64,000 bases of DNA from Rhodoferax sp. (GTDB lineage: Bacteria; Pseudomonadota; Gammaproteobacteria; Burkholderiales; Burkholderiaceae_C), in the NCBI GenBank assembly GCA_031291305.1, contig JARLJH010000039.1, positions 112,959-176,958 on the forward strand. Direction: 5' to 3'. Position numbers and translations under genes: made by a program. Positions 8,026 through 63,720 of the stretch are shown here, one piece after another (the first letter of the stretch is position 1; each line of letters opens with the position of its first letter). The notes beneath the pieces are model-generated. The model did not search any database, was not told where the DNA came from, and saw only the letters and a list, made by a program, of their open reading frames with translations.

Positions 8026-9594
8026 TCAGGTGCGCAGTTTGGCCAGCAGACCGGCGGTGGAGCCGTCCAACCCGGTGGCATCACCGCTGCCCAGGCGGGC
8101 TTGCACTTCTTTCGCCAGCACCTTGCCCAGTTCGACGCCCCACTGGTCAAAGCTGTTGATGCCCCAGAGTGAGCCGCTAACAAACACGCGGTGCTCCTGC
8201 AAGGCAATCAGCGCGCCCAGAGTGGTGGGGCTGAGTTCATCCAGCAGCAAGAAGCTGCTAGGCCGGTTGCCGGGGAAATTTTTGTGACCGCCTGCATCGG
8301 CTTTGCCCAGCATCAACGCCTGCGCCTGCGCCAGCACATTGGCCAGCAGCAGCGTGTGGTGGCCGGGCAGGCTGTGTTTGGCCTTTTTGACCGCCACAAA
8401 CTCAACCGGCACCACATCCGTCCCCTGGTGCAACATCTGAAAATAAGCATGCTGGCCATTGGTGCCGGGCTCGCCCCAGATCACCGGCGAGGTGCCATAC
8501 GGCAACGCCTCACCGTGGGCATCTACCTGTTTGCCATTGCTTTCCATCTCCAGCTGTTGCAGGTAGGCCGGATAGCGTTTGAGGGCACAGTGGTAGGGCG
8601 CCACGCTGCGGCTGGTGAACTTGTGAAAGTTGCGGTACCAGACGTCCAGCAACCCCAAACGCACCGGCAGGTTCTGCGCCAGCGGAGCGGTGCGAAAATG
8701 TTCGTCCATGTCATGCGCGCCCGCCAGAAACTCGCGGAAACCTTGCGCGCCAATGGCCATCGCCAACGGCAAGCCAATGGCCGACCACACCGAATAACGC
8801 CCGCCCACCCAGTCCCAAAACCCAAAGGTGGTGCTGATGCCAAAGGCATTGGCCGCCGCCACGTTGGTGGTCAACGCCGCAAAATGCCGCGCCACATTGG
8901 TGCCGCCTTTCGCATCAAACCATGCCTTGGCGGAGTGCGCGTTGGTCATGGTCTCGATGGTGGTGAAGGTTTTGCTGGCAATCAGGAACAGCGTGCTTTC
9001 AACCTTGACCTTTTTGAGCACCGCCGCCAATTCATGGCCGTCCACGTTGGAGACAAAATGAAACCGCTTACCGGGCGTGACATATTCGTCCAGCGCCAGC
9101 ACCGCCATCTGCGGCCCCAGGTCCGATCCACCAATGCCGATGTTGACCACATCGGTGATGGCAGCGTCGGCGCGCACCACTTCGGCGTAGGCCAGCATGG
9201 CGTCCAGCGTGGCGTGGACTTCCGTCAACTCATTTGCTACGTTTTGTATATCTTCTCGCCCCTTATTCATAAGGGCTAGAGGCGGATTTCTTAATAACCA
9301 ATGCATCACCGCACGGTGCTCGGTGTTGTTGATCTTTTCGCCTGCAAACATCGCCTCACGATGTGATTGCAGGCCGCTTTGCTGCGCCAGATCAAGCAAC
9401 AAGGTTTGAGTTGCCTCGTCAATCAGGTTCTTGGACAGGTCAGCAAAGATGTGAGGCGCACTTTGGCTGAAAGCGCCAAAACGTTTCGGGTCGGCGGCAA
9501 AAGCCTCGCGCACATCGAATGCGCGACCTGCGGTGTCAAACAGGGTTTGCAGTGCACGCCAGGCAGGCGTGCGATCACATCTTGTGGTATTCAT
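8026..9594 (-). CDS. pgi: Glucose-6-phosphate isomerase
   Basis: 522 residues from the start MNTTRCDRTP; an upstream in-frame Met would overlap tal. It interconverts glucose-6-phosphate and fructose-6-phosphate in the cytoplasm. Visible family blocks are NIGIGGSDLGPQM, SKTFTTIETMTNA, WDWVGGRYSVWSAIGLP, the conserved GEPGTNGQHAYFQMLHQG and the C-terminal NSFDQWGVELGK. The gene lies 2 bp downstream of the tal stop, so they are surely co-transcribed. Residues about 103-122 are encoded by a copy of the dispersed palindromic repeat, which replaces the usual loop sequence after the conserved TEHRAVMHWLLR block. Confidence 0.97.
   Translation of the reverse strand: MNTTRCDRTPAWRALQTLFDTAGRAFDVREAFAADPKRFGAFSQSAPHIFADLSKNLIDEATQTLLLDLAQQSGLQSHREAMFAGEKINNTEHRAVMHWLLRNPPLALMNKGREDIQNVANELTEVHATLDAMLAYAEVVRADAAITDVVNIGIGGSDLGPQMAVLALDEYVTPGKRFHFVSNVDGHELAAVLKKVKVESTLFLIASKTFTTIETMTNAHSAKAWFDAKGGTNVARHFAALTTNVAAANAFGISTTFGFWDWVGGRYSVWSAIGLPLAMAIGAQGFREFLAGAHDMDEHFRTAPLAQNLPVRLGLLDVWYRNFHKFTSRSVAPYHCALKRYPAYLQQLEMESNGKQVDAHGEALPYGTSPVIWGEPGTNGQHAYFQMLHQGTDVVPVEFVAVKKAKHSLPGHHTLLLANVLAQAQALMLGKADAGGHKNFPGNRPSSFLLLDELSPTTLGALIALQEHRVFVSGSLWGINSFDQWGVELGKVLAKEVQARLGSGDATGLDGSTAGLLAKLRT
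9234..9300 (-). repeat. Dispersed palindromic repeat inside pgi, translated in frame
   Basis: The plus strand carries GCCCCTTATTCATAAGGGC flanked by TTTGCTACG and AGAGGCGGATTTCTTAAT. It matches the free copies at 43640 (GGGCTGAAGGCCAATTTCTTAAAT) and 63754 (AGGCGGCAAGCCCTTATTTCATAAGG). The reading frame of pgi passes through it without a stop. Confidence 0.75.
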
Positions 9595-9596
9595 GG

Positions 9597-10544
9597 CTAA
9601 TGCCCCAGCAAGAGTTGGTCTAATTTGGCGGCATCGGCACAAAACGCACGGATGCCCTCGGCCAGTTTTTCGGTGGCCATGGCGTCCTGGTTCAACGCGA
9701 AGCGGAAGCTGGCTTCGTCATAGTTCACCGGTGCCAAGTCCAGAGCCTGTGCCGCTTGCGCGTCCAATGCACGTGTCAACGGTGCGTTGGTGCCCGCCAG
9801 CGCGGCCAAGAGGTCCGGGCTGATGGTCAGCAGATCGCAACCGGCCAACGCTGTGATCTGACCCACGTTGCGAAAGCTCGCACCCATCACCTCGGTGGCA
9901 ATGCCGAACTTTTTGTAGTAGTTGTAAATCTGCGTCACCGATTTGACACCTGGGTCGTTGGCAAGCGCGTTGTCCGCCTCAACCCAGCCCGCACCGGCAG
10001 ATTTCTTGTACCAGTCGTAAATCCGACCGACAAACGGAGAGATCAATTGCACCTTGGCCTGGCCACATGCCACCGCCTGACAGAACGAAAAAAGCAAGGT
10101 CAGGTTGGTGTGAATGCCGCGGCGCTGCAATTCGGCAGCAGCCTGAATGCCTTCCCAGGTGGAGGCCACTTTGATCAACACGCGGTCGATGTGAATGCCC
10201 TCGGCCTGATACAGCTCAATGATGCGCTCGGCACGGGTGATGGTGGCACTGCTGTCAAAACTCAGGCGGGCATCGACCTCAGTCGACACACGCCCCGGAA
10301 CGATGGACAAAATCTCGCAGCCAAAACGTACCAGCAGACGGTCGGTGATTTCGTCCAACGCACGGCCTTGAAAGCGGGTGGCAGTGTCCGTCAATAGAGA
10401 CCGATATTCGGCCTTTTGCACCGCCTTGAGGATCAAGGACGGATTGGTGGTGGCATCTGTCGGCTGGTAAGCCTCGATCTGCTTGAAGTCGCCAGTGTCG
10501 GCAACCACGGTCGTGAATTGTTTGAGTGCATCAAGTTGGTTCAT
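9597..10544 (-). CDS. tal: Transaldolase
   Basis: 315 residues, normal for transaldolase subfamily 1. The start [20 protein letters not shown], the segment [16 protein letters not shown], the Schiff-base lysine region [12 protein letters not shown], and [14 protein letters not shown] with [14 protein letters not shown] are all characteristic. It moves a dihydroxyacetone unit between sugar phosphates in the non-oxidative pentose phosphate pathway. It is the first gene of the tal-pgi operon and diverges from zwf; the 126 bp between them carry the zwf promoter and a probable HexR operator that could control both directions. Confidence 0.97.
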
Positions 10545-10605
10545 GTCGCCATTATCTAGCTGAGAAGCCCAGAAATTGTGTCAAAGCAACGCCAGTTACA
10601 TGGTT

Positions 10606-10635
10606 TTGACGAAAAACATGAAACTAAGTTACAGT
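10606..10635 (+). promoter_or_regulatory. Probable zwf promoter
   Basis: TTGACG (10606-10611), an 18-base spacer, then TACAGT (10630-10635). Both hexamers are close to the sigma-70 consensus. The HexR-like palindrome overlaps the spacer and -10 box. Confidence 0.5.
10619..10633. promoter_or_regulatory. Probable HexR operator
   Basis: TGAAACTAAGTTACA is an imperfect palindrome (seven-base arms, one mismatch) and agrees at 12 of 15 positions with the HexR consensus TGTAnTnnnAnTACA described in proteobacteria. It sits between the divergent tal and zwf genes, overlaps the zwf -10 region, and the HexR-like gene lies directly downstream of zwf. Confidence 0.6.
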
Positions 10636-10670
10636 CTCTGGCTAGTTTCTGCAACCACCATCACAACACC

Positions 10671-12125
10671 ATGAGCTTTGATTTAGTACTTTTCGGCGGC
10701 ACCGGCGATCTTTGCTGGCGCAAGCTGATGCCTGCGCTGTTCCAGGCTTTCAAGCACGGCACGCTGCCGACGGGGGGGCGCATCATCGGCATTGGCCGAG
10801 ATGATCTGAGTGACGAGCGCTACCGGGCGCAGATTGCCGCCCGATTTGACCAGGTTGAACTGGAAAAGCGCCCCAGCGACGATGAGTTTGAGCGCTTTGC
10901 TGCCTTGCTGGAATTTGTCAGCATGGACTTGTCCAAGCCAGAGCATTACACCTACCTGAAAAACAAACTGGACCAGCGCCAGGCCGACACGGTGGTGATG
11001 TACCTGGCCACCGCGCCCAACCTGTTTGCCACCATTGCCGAACAACTGGGTGCGGCCGGACTCAACACGCCACATACCCGCATCGTGCTTGAAAAGCCGC
11101 TGGGACATGACCTGGCCAGTAACCGCGCCATCAACCACACGGTGGGACAGGTGTTCCCCGAGCAGCAGATCTACCGCATTGACCATTACCTGGGCAAACC
11201 CGCTGTTCAAAACCTGTTTGCCCTGCGTTTTGGCAACGCCCTGTTCGAGCCGTTGTGGCGACGTGAACACATTGCCAACATCCAGATCACCATTGCCGAG
11301 CAACTGGGCGTGGAAAAGCGCGGCGCGTTTTATGAGACCACGGGCGCCCTACGCGACATGGTGCAAAACCACGCGTTGCAACTGCTGTGTGCCATCGGCA
11401 TGGAGCCGCCCATCAACTCGCACGCCGACGCCATTCGTGATGAAAAACTCAAGGTGCTGCGTTCCCTCAAGCCCTGGACGGCCGAGACCCTGGTGCAAGA
11501 CGTGATGCGCGGCCAATACAGTGCTGGTGCCATTGGTGGCATGGCCGTGCCCGGCTACCGCGAAGAGCTGGGCGTCAACCCGGCCAGCCAGACCGAAACC
11601 TTTGTGGCACTGCGCACCGAGATTTCCAACTGGCGCTGGGCGGGTGTGCCGTTTTACATCCGCACCGGCAAGCGTCTGGCCGGACGTGACGCGCGCATTG
11701 TGGTGAACTTCCGCCCCACACCGCACGCCATCTTCAACTCCCAAATCGGCATGGCCAACCGGCTGGTGATCAATCTGCAACCCAAAGACGGACTGGAGCT
11801 GCACCTGCTGGCTCAGGCGCAGGACAAACGCCAGAACTCCAACAACCTGGCACCCGTGCAGCTTGATCTGGACTTTGACAAGCGCTTTGGTGCCGAGCGC
11901 GTCGGTGCTTATGAACGCCTGCTGCTCGACGTGATTGACGGTCGGTTGAACCTGTTCGTGCGCAGTGACGAGCAGGAAGAAGCCTGGCGTTGGGTCGAAC
12001 CCATCTTGGATTACTGGCAGGCCGACACCCAAGGTCCGCGCCCCTACGCCAGCGGCACCTGGGGGCCCAGCGCGACCAGCGCGATGATCGCGCGCGACGG
12101 TTTTTGCTGGAGCGAGGAATGCTGA
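10671..12125 (+). CDS. zwf: Glucose-6-phosphate 1-dehydrogenase
   Basis: 484 residues from MSFDLVLFGGTGDLCWRKL. This start is preferred over an upstream Met at 10578, which would run through the promoter and add an unconserved tail. It oxidises glucose-6-phosphate to 6-phosphogluconolactone, making NADPH. The nucleotide-binding GGTGDLxxRKL is at residues 9-19, the substrate motif RIDHYLGK near residue 170, and the C-terminal domain carries FYIRTGKRLAGR. hexR follows 18 bp downstream. No pgl or edd/eda is present here. Repression by HexR, relieved by KDPG, is the expected control. Confidence 0.97.
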   Translation: MSFDLVLFGGTGDLCWRKLMPALFQAFKHGTLPTGGRIIGIGRDDLSDERYRAQIAARFDQVELEKRPSDDEFERFAALLEFVSMDLSKPEHYTYLKNKLDQRQADTVVMYLATAPNLFATIAEQLGAAGLNTPHTRIVLEKPLGHDLASNRAINHTVGQVFPEQQIYRIDHYLGKPAVQNLFALRFGNALFEPLWRREHIANIQITIAEQLGVEKRGAFYETTGALRDMVQNHALQLLCAIGMEPPINSHADAIRDEKLKVLRSLKPWTAETLVQDVMRGQYSAGAIGGMAVPGYREELGVNPASQTETFVALRTEISNWRWAGVPFYIRTGKRLAGRDARIVVNFRPTPHAIFNSQIGMANRLVINLQPKDGLELHLLAQAQDKRQNSNNLAPVQLDLDFDKRFGAERVGAYERLLLDVIDGRLNLFVRSDEQEEAWRWVEPILDYWQADTQGPRPYASGTWGPSATSAMIARDGFCWSEEC

Positions 12126-57215: not shown

Positions 57216-59036
57216 GTGGCTGACGTCTTTTCATTCGACTTTTCACCATTTGACGCACTGTGCCCCACCGAGCGAACCCTGCTGGCAGACTCCGCCGTAT
57301 GCGTGCACCGATCGGCGGGCCAAGCCCTGGATCTGGCAGAAAGCGCGACCGACCACCTGTGGGTGGTACAGCGTGGCCATGTGCAGCGCGATGAAGACGG
57401 CCATGTCCATGTGCTCGGCGCAGGCGAGTGCACAGGCTGGCGCGCGCTGCTGACTGGCCGCCACCCGGCGACCACCACCGCGCTCGACGAGGTGATGGCT
57501 TGGCAACTACCAAAAGACATCTTGCTGCGCCTGCTGGCTGATAACGCGCGTTTCAGTGCGCTGGTATTTGCTGAGGTAGCTCGCCACTTGATCAGCGACT
57601 CGGATGCCGACCAAAACCGCGAAATGATGTCTCTGATGCTGGTACGCGTGAAAGATGCCTACCTGCAAAAACCGCTGTATGTGGACGGCCAGCAGGATCT
57701 GGTCAGCGTCTGCCGCATCCTGTCCGAGAAGAAAATGACTCAGGCGCTGGTACGCGACATGCTGGAAGGTCACGAGCGCATTGGCATGTTCACCACCACC
57801 GATTTGCGCGATGCCATTCTCAAACCAATAGCGCCAAACGCTTTATTGGCAAGGGATGTAGCCCGTTTTGATCTCATAACTTTGCCACCGGATGCCGAGC
57901 TGTTTGATGCCTTGCTGATCATGCTGCGCCACCGCGTGCACCGCATTCTGATCAAGGACGGTGACACCATCCTGGGTATCCTGAGCCAACTCGACCTGAT
58001 GAGTTTCATGTCCACACACTCACACCTGATCACCCTGCAGGTGGAACATGCACAAACGGTGGACGAATTGCGGACGGCAGCGCTCCAGGTTGACGACGCC
58101 ATCAAACTGCTGCAGCGCGCCGGACTGCGCATCGAGATTATTTCGCGGCTGGTCAGCGAACTCAACAGCCAGATATTTGCCCGTCTTTGGTCTCTGGTGG
58201 CCCCTGCGGAGCTGGTGCACAACAGCTGCCTGCTGGTCTTGGGTAGCGAAGGCCGCAGCGAGCAGATTCTGAAAACCGACCAAGACAACGCCCTGCTGCT
58301 ACGCGATGGATTTGAGCACCCCAGTCTGGGCCAGGCCACGCAGCAGTTCAGCGCCGCTTTGCTCACGTTTGGCTACCCGCCGTGCCCCGGCAACATCATG
58401 ATCACCAACCCGCAGTGGTGCCAGAACCTGGGAGCATTTCGCGAAACCATTGGCCAATGGCTGTTTGCTGGCGAAGCCGAAGGCACCATGAACCTGGCTA
58501 TTTTTTTGGATGCGCGTGCGGTGTGCGGTGACGCCAGCCTGCTGGCCAACGCCCGCGAGCATGCGCTCAACCTGGCCATTGGCAGCAACACCTACGTCGG
58601 TCGCATGGCCAGTGCCATCAATCAATTCTCAGAACCCACCGTCGGCTGGTGGAGTCGCATCACCAAGCTGCAGGCCAACGAGCCCGAGACCTTCGATTTG
58701 AAGAAGATCGGCACCTTTCCCATCGTCCATGGTGCCCGCGCTTTGGCACTGGAGCACCGGCTGGAAGCCCTGAGCACCACAGAGCGGCTGCAAGCCCTGT
58801 CCAGCCTGGAAGCGCTGCCTGCAGCGCTGGCACGCGACCTGATCGAAACCCTGCACCTGCTCATGGGTCTGAAACTACGCAACAACCTACGCCAGCGCTC
58901 GCTGGGAGACCCCATCAGCAACCTGGTGCAGTTGAACAGCTTGGGCACGCTGGACCGCGATCTGCTCAAGGACGCGCTGGCCATCATCCGCCAGTTCAGG
59001 CAGCATCTGCGACTGCATTACCGGTTGGAAGCCTGA
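57216..59036 (+). CDS. cNMP-binding / CBS / DUF294 nucleotidyltransferase-like protein
   Basis: 606 residues with a GTG start (GTGGCTGAC). An N-terminal cyclic-nucleotide-binding-like domain (about 15-120), two CBS motifs (about 150-275), then a DUF294 putative nucleotidyltransferase (GSEGRSEQILKTDQDNALLL, about 347-366) and the DUF294 C-terminal domain. Proteins of this class are linked to acetate transport and exonuclease genes and are related to GlnD-like signal transferases. Residues about 204-224, between the CBS motifs, are encoded by a copy of the dispersed palindromic repeat. Substrate unknown. Confidence 0.9.
   Translation: MADVFSFDFSPFDALCPTERTLLADSAVCVHRSAGQALDLAESATDHLWVVQRGHVQRDEDGHVHVLGAGECTGWRALLTGRHPATTTALDEVMAWQLPKDILLRLLADNARFSALVFAEVARHLISDSDADQNREMMSLMLVRVKDAYLQKPLYVDGQQDLVSVCRILSEKKMTQALVRDMLEGHERIGMFTTTDLRDAILKPIAPNALLARDVARFDLITLPPDAELFDALLIMLRHRVHRILIKDGDTILGILSQLDLMSFMSTHSHLITLQVEHAQTVDELRTAALQVDDAIKLLQRAGLRIEIISRLVSELNSQIFARLWSLVAPAELVHNSCLLVLGSEGRSEQILKTDQDNALLLRDGFEHPSLGQATQQFSAALLTFGYPPCPGNIMITNPQWCQNLGAFRETIGQWLFAGEAEGTMNLAIFLDARAVCGDASLLANAREHALNLAIGSNTYVGRMASAINQFSEPTVGWWSRITKLQANEPETFDLKKIGTFPIVHGARALALEHRLEALSTTERLQALSSLEALPAALARDLIETLHLLMGLKLRNNLRQRSLGDPISNLVQLNSLGTLDRDLLKDALAIIRQFRQHLRLHYRLEA
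57822..57884 (+). repeat. Degenerate palindromic repeat inside the DUF294 gene
   Basis: AACCAATAGCGCCAAACGCT, then TTATTGGCAAGGGATGTAGC and CCGTTTTGATCTCATAA, keep the spacing of the family (ATAGCtgctAACGCTTTATT..AAGCG..agAGCCc.tTTTGA). The centre is altered. It encodes residues of a CBS linker in frame. Confidence 0.5.
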
Positions 59037-59155: not shown

Positions 59156-59179
59156 AATTGTGTCCAAATGGACACAATT
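59156..59179. promoter_or_regulatory. Perfect 24-bp palindrome, candidate operator
   Basis: AATTGTGTCC, AAAT, GGACACAATT: ten-base perfect arms and a 4-base spacer. It lies about 180 bp upstream of the start of the FlgH-like cluster at the border of an AT-rich region. No T run follows. The symmetry and size fit a dimeric repressor or activator site; the protein is unknown. Confidence 0.6.
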
Positions 59180-59361
59180 AGTCCAATATATATCAATCCA
59201 GTTAATGAATTAATTCAAATGCATCGATACCAATAACCATTAGCTAATGAATTATTTCCAGCAGCGAATGTAATTAGTTTTAGTGCTTTTAATGAAAGGC
59301 TTAAAGTAAATCAACCGTCCTAATATTTCATCACCTTTCCACGTAACCCAAGGAGATGATA

Positions 59362-59850
59362 GTGAGTAATTTTAGTTCGGTGACTTCCTATACGCCGTCA
59401 TTGACTTCCTATACGCCGTCATCGACGGCACTCAAATCGGTGCAATCCAACTACGACACCCTTAGCCAAGCTTGTGACTCGGTGGGGGCCTCAATGGCGA
59501 ACGCTGTGGACAACGTTGACAACGGTGCGAGCGCCGTTGTCAGCTTTAGCGAAGAGAGTTTGAACAAGCTCAGCCAGCTCGCTGACGAGGGTTACAACGC
59601 CATCAAAGGCGCTATCAACGATGCCGGAGCCGCCATAGGCGATGCCGTTACCAGCGCGGAGAACAGTCTTACCTCGCTATATACCGATGTCGCGGGCATG
59701 GCCTCCAAGGGCGAGACGGCCATCAGTAACGCCACCTCTTCAGCGGCTGACACCGTCAGTTCCGCAGCCTCTTCGGTGGCGAATAGCATCGGCTCTGCCA
59801 CCAACAGCGTGGTCGGATACGCCACACAAGCAATCAGCGCAGCGGCTTGA
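59362..59850 (+). CDS. Ser/Ala-rich low-complexity protein, unknown function
   Basis: 162 residues beginning with GTG at 59362; the ATG at 59356 directly abuts AGGAG and is too close to it, while the GTG is spaced by 6 bases. No signal peptide. The N-terminus carries two copies of TSYTPS, encoded by a 21-bp tandem repeat; from about residue 50 the protein is predicted to be mostly helical, rich in Ala, Ser, Asn and Asp with quasi-periodic units (AVDNVDNGASAV, GAAIGDAVTSA, SAASSVANSIGSATNSV). This composition resembles fibrous or secreted proteins. No homologue recognised. First gene of the FlgH-like cluster. Confidence 0.8.
   Translation: MSNFSSVTSYTPSLTSYTPSSTALKSVQSNYDTLSQACDSVGASMANAVDNVDNGASAVVSFSEESLNKLSQLADEGYNAIKGAINDAGAAIGDAVTSAENSLTSLYTDVAGMASKGETAISNATSSAADTVSSAASSVANSIGSATNSVVGYATQAISAAA
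59381..59422 (+). repeat. Perfect tandem repeat, two 21-bp units, within the Ser/Ala-rich gene
   Basis: TGACTTCCTATACGCCGTCA plus T occurs twice in a row without a mismatch. It adds seven residues per unit (reading TSYTPSL and TSYTPSS) in frame, so it can expand or contract without breaking the gene. Confidence 0.95.
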
Positions 59851-59851
59851 C

Positions 59852-60433
59852 ATGAAACCCCGCAGACACCTTGTAGCGCTGGCTGTTGCGAGCTTGTCGC
59901 TGTCGGGCTGCTCCATCCTCAGCCCAACACCCCTCTGGGAATTGGCCAAGGCCGCTGGGACGCTGACCAGACGCTCCTTGAACTTGAGTTCTGGTGAGGC
60001 CAGTGACACCGTGTACTACCAACACGCCCCTTTTTCCAGCTTATGTATCGAATTCAATCCGCAAACCCAAACAGCTGACGTGGTACCCGCCTTGCAACTG
60101 GAGCTACAGGCCCACCAGATTGAAAGCCGGGTGTACGAAAGCGCGATCAATACACCAAATTGCCCGGTCTGGCTGCACTACAGCGCGCAGATGGACTGGG
60201 ACATCTCGCCCCACACGGAACGCTACGAGAGCTACATCAGCAAAGCCGCATTGACCCTCCAAAACGACAAAGGCCAAGTGCTGTCAAGCAGCTACTACAT
60301 CTTGGGCGACGGCTTTGGCAACAACAAATGGGCCTCGACCCGGGACAAGTTGGCACCTGTGGTCAGCGCCCTGATCACCAAGACGACCCCGACGAACCGC
60401 CCTCCAGTCCCACCACCCAAGGAGTCCTCATGA
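59852..60433 (+). CDS. Uncharacterised lipoprotein
   Basis: 193 residues from MKPRRHLVALAVASLSLSGC; the signal peptide ends in a lipobox (LSGC, Cys 20). The start follows the preceding stop by one base. The rest shows YYQHAPFSSLCIEFNPQT, VWLHYSAQMDWDISPHT and YISKAALTLQNDKGQVLSSS, with two Cys residues in the mature part that could form a disulphide. No family is recognised. It overlaps the FlgH-like gene by 4 bp (ATGA at 60430-60433), so the two are translationally coupled and probably function together in the envelope. Confidence 0.8.
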   Translation: MKPRRHLVALAVASLSLSGCSILSPTPLWELAKAAGTLTRRSLNLSSGEASDTVYYQHAPFSSLCIEFNPQTQTADVVPALQLELQAHQIESRVYESAINTPNCPVWLHYSAQMDWDISPHTERYESYISKAALTLQNDKGQVLSSSYYILGDGFGNNKWASTRDKLAPVVSALITKTTPTNRPPVPPPKESS

Positions 60434-61122
60434 TCCCCTCCCATATTCGCCCGTTTCTGGGCGCTCTCAGTCTGATCAGCATGCTGATGGGCTGCGCCAG
60501 TGAGCCTGTGGCCCTGGTCCAGGGGCCACTGACGGCGTTGCCCGTGGCTCGCCCAGCGAATATCGAACGCGTCAACACCGGCTCGCTGTTTCAGGCCAAT
60601 TCAGGGTCGCTCTTTACAGGACGGCGCAAACCCCGCGCTATAGGTGACACCGTCAAGGTAAACATTTCGGAGACTCTGAGTGCCAGCAACACGATCAAGG
60701 AAGATGCCAGCCGCGAAAGCTCCCTCTCGTCCAAAGGACCCGGCAACATGCGGACCGATTCAGCGCTGGCCGGCATCTTCAACCAGAGCGCTTCCGCCTC
60801 TGGCAGCAACACGTTCAAGGGCGATGGCACTTCCAAAAATGACAGCAGCTTCACCGGTCAACTTGCCGCCTCGGTGATCAATGTACTGGCTAACGGCAAT
60901 TTGGTGGTAGCTGGCGAGCGCAGTATCGCCCTACACGGCGGTGGCAGCACCTTGCGTTTTTCCGGTGTGGTAGACCCGCGGGACATCAGGGATGGCAACG
61001 TCATCCAGTCCAGCGATGTCGTCAATGCGCGACTCGAAGTCGTCGCGCAGGGTGATGTGTCAGAGATCGCGTCCCGTACCTGGATGCAACGGGTACTCAG
61101 CCGCATCGAGTCGGTTTGGTAG
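60430..61122 (+). CDS. FlgH-family L-ring lipoprotein, isolated from other flagellar genes
   Basis: 230 residues. A signal peptide with lipobox ending MGC (Cys 22) is followed by the FlgH pattern: NTGSLFQANSGSLFTGRRKP, RAIGDTVKVNISETLSASN, SNTFKGDGTSKNDSSFTG, VINVLANGNLVVAGERSIAL, LRFSGVVDPRDIRDGNVIQS and the end WMQRVLSRIESVW. The match extends over the whole length of canonical FlgH, which forms the outer-membrane L-ring with FlgI of the flagellar basal body. Here it is flanked by an unknown lipoprotein and a chalcone-isomerase-like gene rather than flgG/flgI. Either a displaced flgH or a ring-forming paralogue with another role. Confidence 0.88.
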   Translation: MIPSHIRPFLGALSLISMLMGCASEPVALVQGPLTALPVARPANIERVNTGSLFQANSGSLFTGRRKPRAIGDTVKVNISETLSASNTIKEDASRESSLSSKGPGNMRTDSALAGIFNQSASASGSNTFKGDGTSKNDSSFTGQLAASVINVLANGNLVVAGERSIALHGGGSTLRFSGVVDPRDIRDGNVIQSSDVVNARLEVVAQGDVSEIASRTWMQRVLSRIESVW

Positions 61123-61139
61123 CTCACTTGGAGGTAATC

Positions 61140-61790
61140 ATGTTCTCAATACTCAAAACAACGCTGATCGCCGCATCCTGGGTGGCAGCAAGCCTGCCCG
61201 CCACGGCAACCATGCAAATGGATGGCGTCGCCTTGGAAGAGTCTGTGCAGGTTGCTGGCAATGACCTCAAACTCAATGGCGCCGGCATCAGTATGCGCTT
61301 GATTTTCAAGGTGTATGTGATTGGCCTCTATCTGCCAAACCGTGAGCACTCTGCACAGGAAGTTCTGCATGCAGAAGGCCCCAGACGTCTGCGGATCACC
61401 ATGCTACGGGATGTCAGTGGATCAGACTTCTACGACAAGTTACGGCAATATACCGTGGAAGAAGGTGCTTCGATCCCCGCCTTGATCCTGGACAATATGC
61501 AGCGCGTGATTCAAGCCATCGACCGGCAATCGAACGGTTTGCATAAGGGCGACACCCTTACCCTAGACTGGGTACCTGGCACGGGAACCCTCGTCGGACT
61601 CAACAACAAACCACTCACGGCCCCCATGCGTGACATTGCTTTTTACAAGGCTTTGCTCAACATCTGGCTCGGTGACAAGCCGACCGACTCTGACCTCAAA
61701 ATGAAACTTCTGGGCCGCCCCACGGAAGTACGGCGGGATTGTTTGGCTGAGGCGCCCATCAAATGTCAACGCAATATGTCATCTTTGTAA
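61140..61790 (+). CDS. Chalcone-isomerase-like periplasmic protein
   Basis: 216 residues from MFSILKTTLIAASWVAAS with a signal peptide ending near residue 24. The segment LNGAGISMRLIFKVYVIGLYLPN, then RRLRITMLRDVSGSDFYD, is typical of the bacterial chalcone-isomerase-like (Chalcone_3) family, whose biochemical role is unknown. The ribosome binding site GGAGG at 61130-61134 lies close before ATG. It is 17 bp after the FlgH-like gene, thus the fourth gene of the run. Proteins of this family are periplasmic and have been annotated in many proteobacteria without function. Confidence 0.85.
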   Translation: MFSILKTTLIAASWVAASLPATATMQMDGVALEESVQVAGNDLKLNGAGISMRLIFKVYVIGLYLPNREHSAQEVLHAEGPRRLRITMLRDVSGSDFYDKLRQYTVEEGASIPALILDNMQRVIQAIDRQSNGLHKGDTLTLDWVPGTGTLVGLNNKPLTAPMRDIAFYKALLNIWLGDKPTDSDLKMKLLGRPTEVRRDCLAEAPIKCQRNMSSL

Positions 61791-61909: not shown

Positions 61910-62638
61910 ATGAATTCGAATGCTCAGGTACTGATTGTTGACGATGACGAAGACATCAATCGGTTGCTGGCCAATTATCTGGTCCCCTATGGCTTCGTCA
62001 TCCATGTGGCTTGTGATGGTGAAGACATGCACCGCCAGCTTGAGCGTCAAAGCATTGACCTGATCGTGATGGACATCATGTTGCCGGGAACGGACGGTTT
62101 GAGCCTGACGCGCGAAGTCAGGCAACACTCCAAGATTCCGATCATCATGCTGACCGCACGCTCCGACCACTACGACCGGATACTGGGGCTGGAAATCGGC
62201 GCAGACGACTACATCACCAAGCCATTTGAGCCGCGCGAACTGGTGGCACGTATCCAATCGGTGCTGCGCCGCGCCAGACTCCGTGTGAACACCCCATTGC
62301 GTGGTGAGCGAGATGTCATCAGTTTCAATGGCTGGAGGCTCAATGCCGACGACCACAGTTTGCTTGCTCCCAGCGGCGTGAAAGTGGTCTTGTCGAATGC
62401 AGAATTCCAACTGCTGTGCAGTTTTTTGCATACCCCGCGACAGTTGTTAAGGCGGGACCAATTGATCAAGCTCGCACACGGCCACGTGGATGGGGCGGGT
62501 GAGCGCAGCGTTGACCTGCTGGTGTCGCGGCTGCGTCAGAAGCTTGCCGAATCTCCCAACGGGCCGGAAATGATCAAGACCGTTCGGGGCCACGGCTACC
62601 TGTTTACCGCTGCCGTGGAGTTAGGCCAGTCGGTATGA
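61910..62638 (+). CDS. Two-component response regulator, OmpR family
   Basis: 242 residues. The receiver domain has VLIVDDDED (acidic pocket Asp 11-13), the phospho-acceptor Asp 55 in IVMDIMLPG, the Thr of MLTARS and the Lys of YITKPFEPREL. The C-terminal OmpR-type winged helix ends with DLLVSRLRQKL, IKTVRGHGYLF. The gene overlaps the sensor kinase gene by 4 bp. It follows the FlgH-like cluster after a 119-bp AT-rich gap, so it may regulate it. Confidence 0.93.
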   Translation: MNSNAQVLIVDDDEDINRLLANYLVPYGFVIHVACDGEDMHRQLERQSIDLIVMDIMLPGTDGLSLTREVRQHSKIPIIMLTARSDHYDRILGLEIGADDYITKPFEPRELVARIQSVLRRARLRVNTPLRGERDVISFNGWRLNADDHSLLAPSGVKVVLSNAEFQLLCSFLHTPRQLLRRDQLIKLAHGHVDGAGERSVDLLVSRLRQKLAESPNGPEMIKTVRGHGYLFTAAVELGQSV

Positions 62639-63720
62639 AACGTCTGCTGACCTGGCTGCGGTGGCGGCTGCTGCCCAGCACGCTGTTCGGTCGTCTGGCG
62701 CTGCTGCTCGGCGTCGCGGTATTGGTCAGCCACGTCCTGGCACTCAAATTGATGTTTGAAGTTGGCCCAGACCTGTTTGGCCATGCGCCACCCGGCGGCG
62801 GACCGCCATTGCCCCCCCCACGACCCGGTGAGGTACCCGGCCCCATGCTTCTCGGCTTGTTACTCGATATTGGCGTACGGTTATCGGCATTGATGCTGGC
62901 TGCCTGGATTGGTGCGCGCTGGCTGGCACAGCCGGTCCAGCGCCTGGCCGATGCAGCACGCGAGCTGGGGCGCGACATTCACCGCACCCCTCTGGTTGAA
63001 GAAGGCAGCGACGAATGCCGCCAGGCAACCCGCGTTTTCAACCAGATGCAGGCCCAAATTTGCAAGCAACTCAGTGAGCGAGACAGCTTTGTAGCCGCCG
63101 TCTCGCACGATCTACGCACGCCCCTGACACGCATGACGCTCAGGGCCGAGAGCCTGGAAGATACCGAGCAACGCCTTAGCTTCCGGCGCGATATTGCCGA
63201 GATGAACGACATGATCACCGCCACGCTGGACCACCTGCGCGGTGTGGCCTCGGGCGAACCGATGGAGCTGTTGGATGTCAGCTCGCTGCTGAGCAGCCTG
63301 GTGGATGACTGCCTTGCATGGGGTCACCCAGTGACTCTGGTCGAACCTGCCCCTTCCCGTCCAATGGCGCCGCTGCTAACACAAGGCCAGGCCCTGCGGC
63401 GCTGCATCAGCAACCTTGTGGACAACGCAGTGCGTTACGGCGGCTCTGCGCAGCTGCGCTATTTTGACAAGGGCGACCTGCTTTGCATCGAAGTCAGCGA
63501 CCCCGGCCCCGGCATGACGCCTGCAGATCTGGACAAAGCGCTGACGCCGTTTTATCGGGCTGAAGGTTCACGCAACCGCAACAGCGGTGGGGTAGGCCTG
63601 GGGCTATCAATTGCCAACGACATTGCCCGCCGCCTGCACGGCGAGGTGCAGCTCAAAAACGGGAGCGGCGGCGGCCTGATGGCCACCGTAGTTTTGCCGC
63701 GACTGTCTGCGACGCCATGA
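62635..63720 (+). CDS. Sensor histidine kinase, EnvZ-like
   Basis: 361 residues. Two membrane helices (about 19-42 and 76-100) enclose a short periplasmic loop rich in Pro and Gly (APPGGGPPLPPPRPGEVPG), a HAMP domain, then the H box AVSHDLRTPLTRM with His 158, the N box NLVDNAVRYGG, VSDPGPGM and a G box with GVGLGLSIANDIA. It should phosphorylate the adjoining regulator; signal unknown. The 4-bp overlap couples their translation. Confidence 0.93.
   Translation: MKRLLTWLRWRLLPSTLFGRLALLLGVAVLVSHVLALKLMFEVGPDLFGHAPPGGGPPLPPPRPGEVPGPMLLGLLLDIGVRLSALMLAAWIGARWLAQPVQRLADAARELGRDIHRTPLVEEGSDECRQATRVFNQMQAQICKQLSERDSFVAAVSHDLRTPLTRMTLRAESLEDTEQRLSFRRDIAEMNDMITATLDHLRGVASGEPMELLDVSSLLSSLVDDCLAWGHPVTLVEPAPSRPMAPLLTQGQALRRCISNLVDNAVRYGGSAQLRYFDKGDLLCIEVSDPGPGMTPADLDKALTPFYRAEGSRNRNSGGVGLGLSIANDIARRLHGEVQLKNGSGGGLMATVVLPRLSATP

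Follow-up and report, generated by a model that had tools for sequence, protein, structure and literature searches.

An FlgH outside the flagellar operon paired with a lipoprotein in Betaproteobacteria, a candidate second L-ring protein

Introduction

The flagellar LP ring is usually taken as a fixed bushing composed of one FlgH and one FlgI. A 64,000-nucleotide stretch of a Rhodoferax sp. contig, hereafter the window, encodes an FlgH-like lipoprotein (C) within a compact cluster of envelope genes, and this arrangement raises the question of what an L-ring protein does outside a flagellar operon. An initial annotation of the window grouped C with a low-complexity protein (A), a lipoprotein (B) and a chalcone-isomerase-like protein (D), proposed that the four genes build an outer-membrane ring or channel with A as a possible exported or structural product, and named a displaced flagellar gene as the main alternative. 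Here, we examine the cluster, the rest of its genome and related genomes, and weigh these readings against a role for C at the flagellum itself.

The FlgH-like gene lies in a compact cluster

All four open reading frames of the annotated envelope cluster were confirmed in place (Table 1). A single base separates the stop codon of A from the start of B, the B and C genes overlap in ATGA, and 17 bases lie between C and D; by spacing and strand, A-B-C-D reads as one operon. An alternative start for A, the ATG at 59356, gives a protein of 164 aa but touches the AAGGAG. A further 119 bases separate D from the gene of a response regulator.

Table 1. Features of the cluster and its flanks in window coordinates (Rhodoferax sp. 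contig).
Feature	Coordinates	Strand	Description
Inverted repeat, perfect	59156..59179	.	AATTGTGTCC-AAAT-GGACACAATT, 5' of A; read from sequence
A	59362..59850	+	162 aa from GTG 59362; Ser/Ala-rich; without signal peptide (by eye)
B	59852..60433	+	outer-membrane-type lipoprotein, lipobox LSGC
C	60430..61122	+	FlgH-like L-ring lipoprotein (FlgH2), lipobox LMGC
D	61140..61790	+	chalcone-isomerase-like (Chalcone_3, PF16036); signal peptide by eye
OmpR-type response regulator	61910..62638	+	domain-family match
EnvZ-type histidine kinase	62635..63720	+	domain-family match; coupled to regulator

C is a second FlgH in a genome that retains its flagellar flgH

C matches PF02107 over nearly the whole domain (profile positions 3-169 of 172, E 3.3e-44, 151 bits against a gathering cut-off of 27), and its best solved-structure match is Salmonella FlgH (7bgl, E 3.2e-35). 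Thirteen NCBIfam FlgH models also matched C, all of them under their cut-offs (best 152.2 bits versus 280). The position between flgG and flgI in this genome is held by another flgH, so that C falls outside the positional definition of the equivalog as well.

The genome encodes two FlgH proteins. The gene of the first stands between flgG and flgI on contig C24, and the second is C itself, on contig C1, which carries the window. The single FlgI match, the single FlhA match and all three flagellin-domain matches reside on C24. C is therefore an orphan homologue distinct from the flagellar FlgH of its own genome, as initially annotated. The initial annotation had asked whether the genome has a flagellar locus with its own flgH; a flgG-flgH-flgI set is present on the other contig, and C is not the only flgH of the genome. 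These observations exclude a displaced flgH in this genome, which keeps the operon copy; a similar event did occur in two relatives, described below.

A midpoint-rooted FlgH tree was built from 57 rows, 15 of them orphan and 42 flagellar (52 rows differ, and some branches are long). A branch supported at 98/92 and recovered in 98% of 200 bootstrap trees sets the orphans apart. They sit among the flagellar FlgH proteins of the same order, which makes duplication of a flagellar FlgH their likely origin.

Orphan FlgH proteins are found across several genera

A search with C of 148 genomes, including its own, returned some FlgH match in 103. Close matches (at least 79% identity) are confined to four of the 89 genomes of the window's genus, again including its own, and one further genome (G145) holds a 50% match. 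The other matches that were opened adjoined flgG or flgI. A single-protein scan of genome contigs with C confirmed no relative. The 15 B proteins tried were too weakly conserved in any stretch to yield a profile, and named genomes were scanned instead with one built from seven orphan C proteins. This pattern-limited scan, from which 80 of 159 loci were kept, gives a lower bound on the range: 34 loci lack flgG and flgI and are termed orphan, 46 contain them and are termed flagellar, and the carriers comprise Aquitalea, Herbaspirillum, Silvimonas, Amantichitinum, Andreprevotia and a record titled Duganella MAG.

Carriers usually encode one FlgH more than FlgI. Among 49 carrier rows, in which at least two pairs of rows represent the same genome, FlgI was found in 47; the exceptions are G853 and G874, both from records with MAG in their titles. 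The number of FlgH equals that of FlgI plus one in 47 of the 49 rows, the exceptions being G865 and G874, and one conforming genome (G868) fits by number only. All 18 genomes of g111, taken as the genus Herbaspirillum because FlgI has the same position in G1111 as in G869 (Herbaspirillum sp. SJZ106), hold two FlgH and one FlgI by a hand count in which not every second gene was opened, and no other listed genome in the Herbaspirillum family sample (245 genomes) has more FlgH than FlgI. Since FlgI occurs in 198 of the 217 good genomes of this family, its co-occurrence with orphan FlgH is in itself weak evidence of a functional link.

Lipoprotein B accompanies orphan FlgH

The most constant companion of C is B: 31 of the 34 orphan loci encode it no farther than about 0.8 kb from C, and the remaining three (L108, L109 and L117) reach the contig edge some 350 bases or less from C. 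B is absent from all 46 flagellar loci. The order of the two genes varies among carriers, with B following C or convergent to it, which makes the pairing more telling. A search with B of 399 genomes of the order matched 20, its own included. At the 20 places outside its own genome (one genome has two), orphan FlgH adjoins B in 14 and is absent in six. Class-wide, five of 369 genomes matched besides its own, and their 3.3-kb loci showed no FlgH. B-like lipoproteins likewise occur with no FlgH match in the fetched stretch at L083, L088, L089 and L090-L092, with a tandem pair in L090; the B domain thus has other uses.

B carries two invariant cysteines in addition to its lipid cysteine. It resembles the NCBIfam Sbal_3080 family (NF040519) over residues 62-175, where it scores 49.9 bits, under the membership cut-off of 80, and differs from that family in an extra N-terminal segment and in adjoining FlgH2. 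A search of solved structures with B gave no match. The Vibrio H-ring proteins FlgO, FlgP and FlgT are outer-membrane-associated additions to the L ring of an ordinary flagellum, and their genes go with one ordinary FlgH. B would be comparable to them as an L-ring addition, but none of 15 B proteins scanned matched a Pfam family of the FlgO/FlgP/FlgT type.

Residues that dock on FlgI are retained

PMC8298488 describes how Ile30/Phe31 and Leu44/Phe45 of Salmonella FlgH occupy two pockets of FlgI. Sought as regular expressions, the first of these pairs is present in all 44 distinct orphans and in 45 of 46 flagellar rows, the second in 43 orphans and 38 flagellar rows. At alignment column 45, Phe or Tyr is present in 39 of the 44 orphans and Thr or Ser in four; we read these four as a one-column alignment shift. 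In the window's group the pair (SLFTG) is displaced by one column.

Other positions distinguish the two classes. Of the 46 flagellar rows, 33 have the basic residue of the rod-facing belt at position 114, while 40 of the 44 orphans have it at 112, a displacement by two residues that would leave the charge on the same face of a beta strand. The near-invariant flagellar residues Phe123, Thr130 and Pro165 differ in most orphans, and many alignment columns are constrained among the orphans themselves. The remaining belt positions named in PMC8298488 vary in both groups alike. The N-terminal lipid-attachment cysteine is present in C and in 49 of 50 orphan rows, with a gap in one. In sum, C is like flagellar FlgH (PF02107; Salmonella 7bgl) in its near full-length domain, its lipid cysteine and its FlgI-docking hydrophobic pairs. 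It differs in its separate branch, its place outside the flg operon, its scores under the NCBIfam cut-offs and its pairing with B, and the orphans as a class in a shifted rod-belt lysine, a typical Gly85-Pro86 and other class-specific residues.

Two carriers have lost the flagellar flgH

In two relatives, an orphan-type FlgH is found in a genome whose flagellar operon has lost flgH; one of the losses is seen in a MAG and the other in a draft assembly. Herbaspirillum sp. Sphag64 (G865, a draft assembly) has one FlgI and a single FlgH, which is of the orphan type. At its flagellar locus (L179), flgG (10150-10932) and flgI (8937-10100) are separated by 49 bases, and no flgH match was found in the locus. 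In the Duganella-titled MAG (G868, L185), 207 bases lie between flgG (9555-10337) and flgI (8184-9347). This gap holds a 24-residue remnant of the flgH C-terminus at 45.8% identity, a weak match (E 1.8e-4 within the gap, 0.011 over the whole locus). Both FlgH proteins of this genome are of the orphan type and are encoded away from the flgG-flgI site. The neighboring reading frames of both genomes, flgB to flgL as named by eye and order, are open, and FlhA and flagellin were found in both. That these two genomes keep a flagellar set but no operon flgH suggests that their L ring is made of FlgH2.

A and D are restricted to fewer lineages

Among 147 genomes, A was found in all five with orphan C, and two others gave weak matches (E 2.6e-4 and 0.009); in one genome (G004) it lies on a different contig, the contig of C ending there. 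Its hydrophobic residues recur with a period of 3.64 residues, an 11-residue amphipathic-helix pattern. Five A-type proteins, two of them short Aquitalea reading frames, have periods of 3.62-3.66, which none of 500 shuffles of each sequence reached, the shuffles being scanned on a coarser grid than the real proteins. Only one of the first 25 residues of A is charged, and this nearly uncharged, Ser/Thr-rich start is the one feature hinting that a flagellar or type III export system might recognize A as a substrate. Matches of A to tape-measure proteins in PHROG (best 7.8e-7) and to phasin-like proteins (0.015) were both taken as shared low-complexity helix, and neither homology was accepted.

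Short Ser/Ala/Gly-rich reading frames divergent from C are present in five plus three loci of the Aquitalea genus (two genomes counted twice). Only one of them is similar to A, at E 3e-4 with composition correction off; with a single similar frame, homology to A is weak. A composition filter applied to loci of Herbaspirillum, Silvimonas, Andreprevotia, G343 and g28 gave no A-like reading frame close to C. D matches Chalcone_3 (PF16036; E 5.4e-39, 134.4 bits against a gathering cut-off of 27) and accompanies the cluster, among the loci examined, only in the window's genus. Co-conservation of all four families, as the initial annotation would have it, is therefore borne out in part: B and C form the core, B-C and A-B-C recur outside the strain with A present in the genus and one other genome, and D joins them in one genus only.

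An OmpR-type regulator neighbors the module in several lineages

The regulator and kinase downstream of D match their domain families and score 227.1 and 185.1 bits against the OmpR and EnvZ equivalogs, under the respective cut-offs of 331 and 415. Of ten lineages, six have a regulator of the OmpR type no more than about 2 kb from C, with no orthology among these regulators implied: the window's genus, G145, G385 with Silvimonas, Andreprevotia, G343 and g28. It is missing at that distance from the other four (Aquitalea, Herbaspirillum, Amantichitinum and the Duganella-titled record). In the 46 flagellar loci, some of them short, no OmpR-type regulator match was found within 2 kb at E 1e-4.

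The perfect inverted repeat upstream of A is a possible regulator or autoregulation site. A related motif, TTTGTGTCCAA, is found with 0-2 mismatches in relatives, where it precedes A and the regulator gene. The TTGTGTCC motif is a perfect inverted repeat in the window and partly imperfect in the D-to-regulator gaps of L033-L035. A promoter and terminator scan gave no more than its shuffles did.

A proposed second L-ring protein and its alternatives

We read C, with a probability of roughly one half, as a second L-ring protein, FlgH2, which would dock on the P ring and have B as its partner, rather than as part of a non-flagellar channel. FlgH2 would derive from flagellar FlgH and form an outer-membrane ring able to dock on FlgI, with B as an outer-membrane lipoprotein dedicated to it. 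Most carriers would use the two together with the ordinary FlgH, as a bushing that offers either an alternative or a reinforcement at the outer membrane, and the neighboring OmpR/EnvZ-type pair would probably turn them on; in at least two relatives FlgH2 appears to replace FlgH. The long amphipathic helix of A and the periplasmic D would represent lineage-specific additions. Against a site of action at the flagellum, the module lies outside the flagellar locus in the carriers examined and is tied to B, sometimes to A and often to a regulator, which is more than an ordinary spare ring protein would need. The docking motif, moreover, could be kept for ring self-assembly instead of for binding FlgI.

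We consider it rather unlikely that C and B form an outer-membrane ring or channel independent of the flagellum and serving to export or anchor A, as first proposed, even with an operon of its own in which A and B are coupled to C, the recurrence of A in five C-bearing genomes of 147 and weakly in two more, a linked two-component pair, no flgG or flgI near the module in the carriers examined, and residues specific to the orphans. Among reading frames judged by eye and a few queries, no recognizable inner-membrane exporter is conserved with the module, and the composition filter gave no A-like frame near C in the loci examined from Herbaspirillum, Silvimonas, Andreprevotia, G343 and g28. The retained FlgI-docking residues, the presence of FlgI in nearly all carrier rows and the two flagellar operons that lost flgH in genomes keeping an orphan FlgH all weaken the channel further. 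A redundant flgH duplicate drifting without distinct function would fit the homology of C to flagellar FlgH along its length and the sparse distribution of close matches in the window's genus, but is made improbable by the two FlgH per FlgI in every Herbaspirillum-genus genome, by the persistence of B beside C over deep divergence and by the many constrained orphan columns. Plugs of relic LP rings are known, and C might form such a ring or plug, capping or reusing an LP ring left after flagella are shed or unbuilt, under two-component control. The P-ring docking residues, the distance from rod and hook genes, the lipoprotein partner and the regulator adjoining the genes in several lineages are all compatible with this idea; according to PMC8298488, LP rings can outlast ejected flagella. 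Replacement, however, accounts better for the disappearance of flgH from two carriers, and we judge the plug very improbable.

Returning to FlgH2, a second class of FlgH in flagellated Betaproteobacteria suggests that the outer-membrane ring may be exchangeable or reusable, and the genomes that lack the ordinary flgH represent natural deletion strains. We entertain, tentatively, the broader notion that a new L-ring class with its lipoprotein and two-component switch provides either two bushings per flagellar system or a P ring combined with a non-flagellar pore through which A acts.

Further observations on the module and its surroundings

The literature searched, seen mostly as listings and the openings of abstracts, described no second-FlgH module and no system of this composition, in agreement with the initial annotation. 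Passages of PMC10965572 report lower flgH expression in one condition and leave unstated which flgH is meant. Forty-six plasmid records matched C; among the 15 listed, nine carry an annotated flgH and six are without annotation.

In the Duganella-titled MAG, the second orphan-type FlgH (L187:8710-9381) has room on both sides and no B, and the reading frames upstream of it are transposase-like by eye. Within the window, positions 57216-59036 encode a DUF294/CBS/cNMP-binding protein following an ActP-like permease (the permease named by eye), and a protein of this kind adjoins the cluster in both same-genus relatives with enough upstream sequence. In many Herbaspirillum loci, B is adjoined by a conserved protein (L106:7543-7983, L074:5819-6262) some 147 residues long, whose signal peptide was judged by eye and which has matches in nine other loci.
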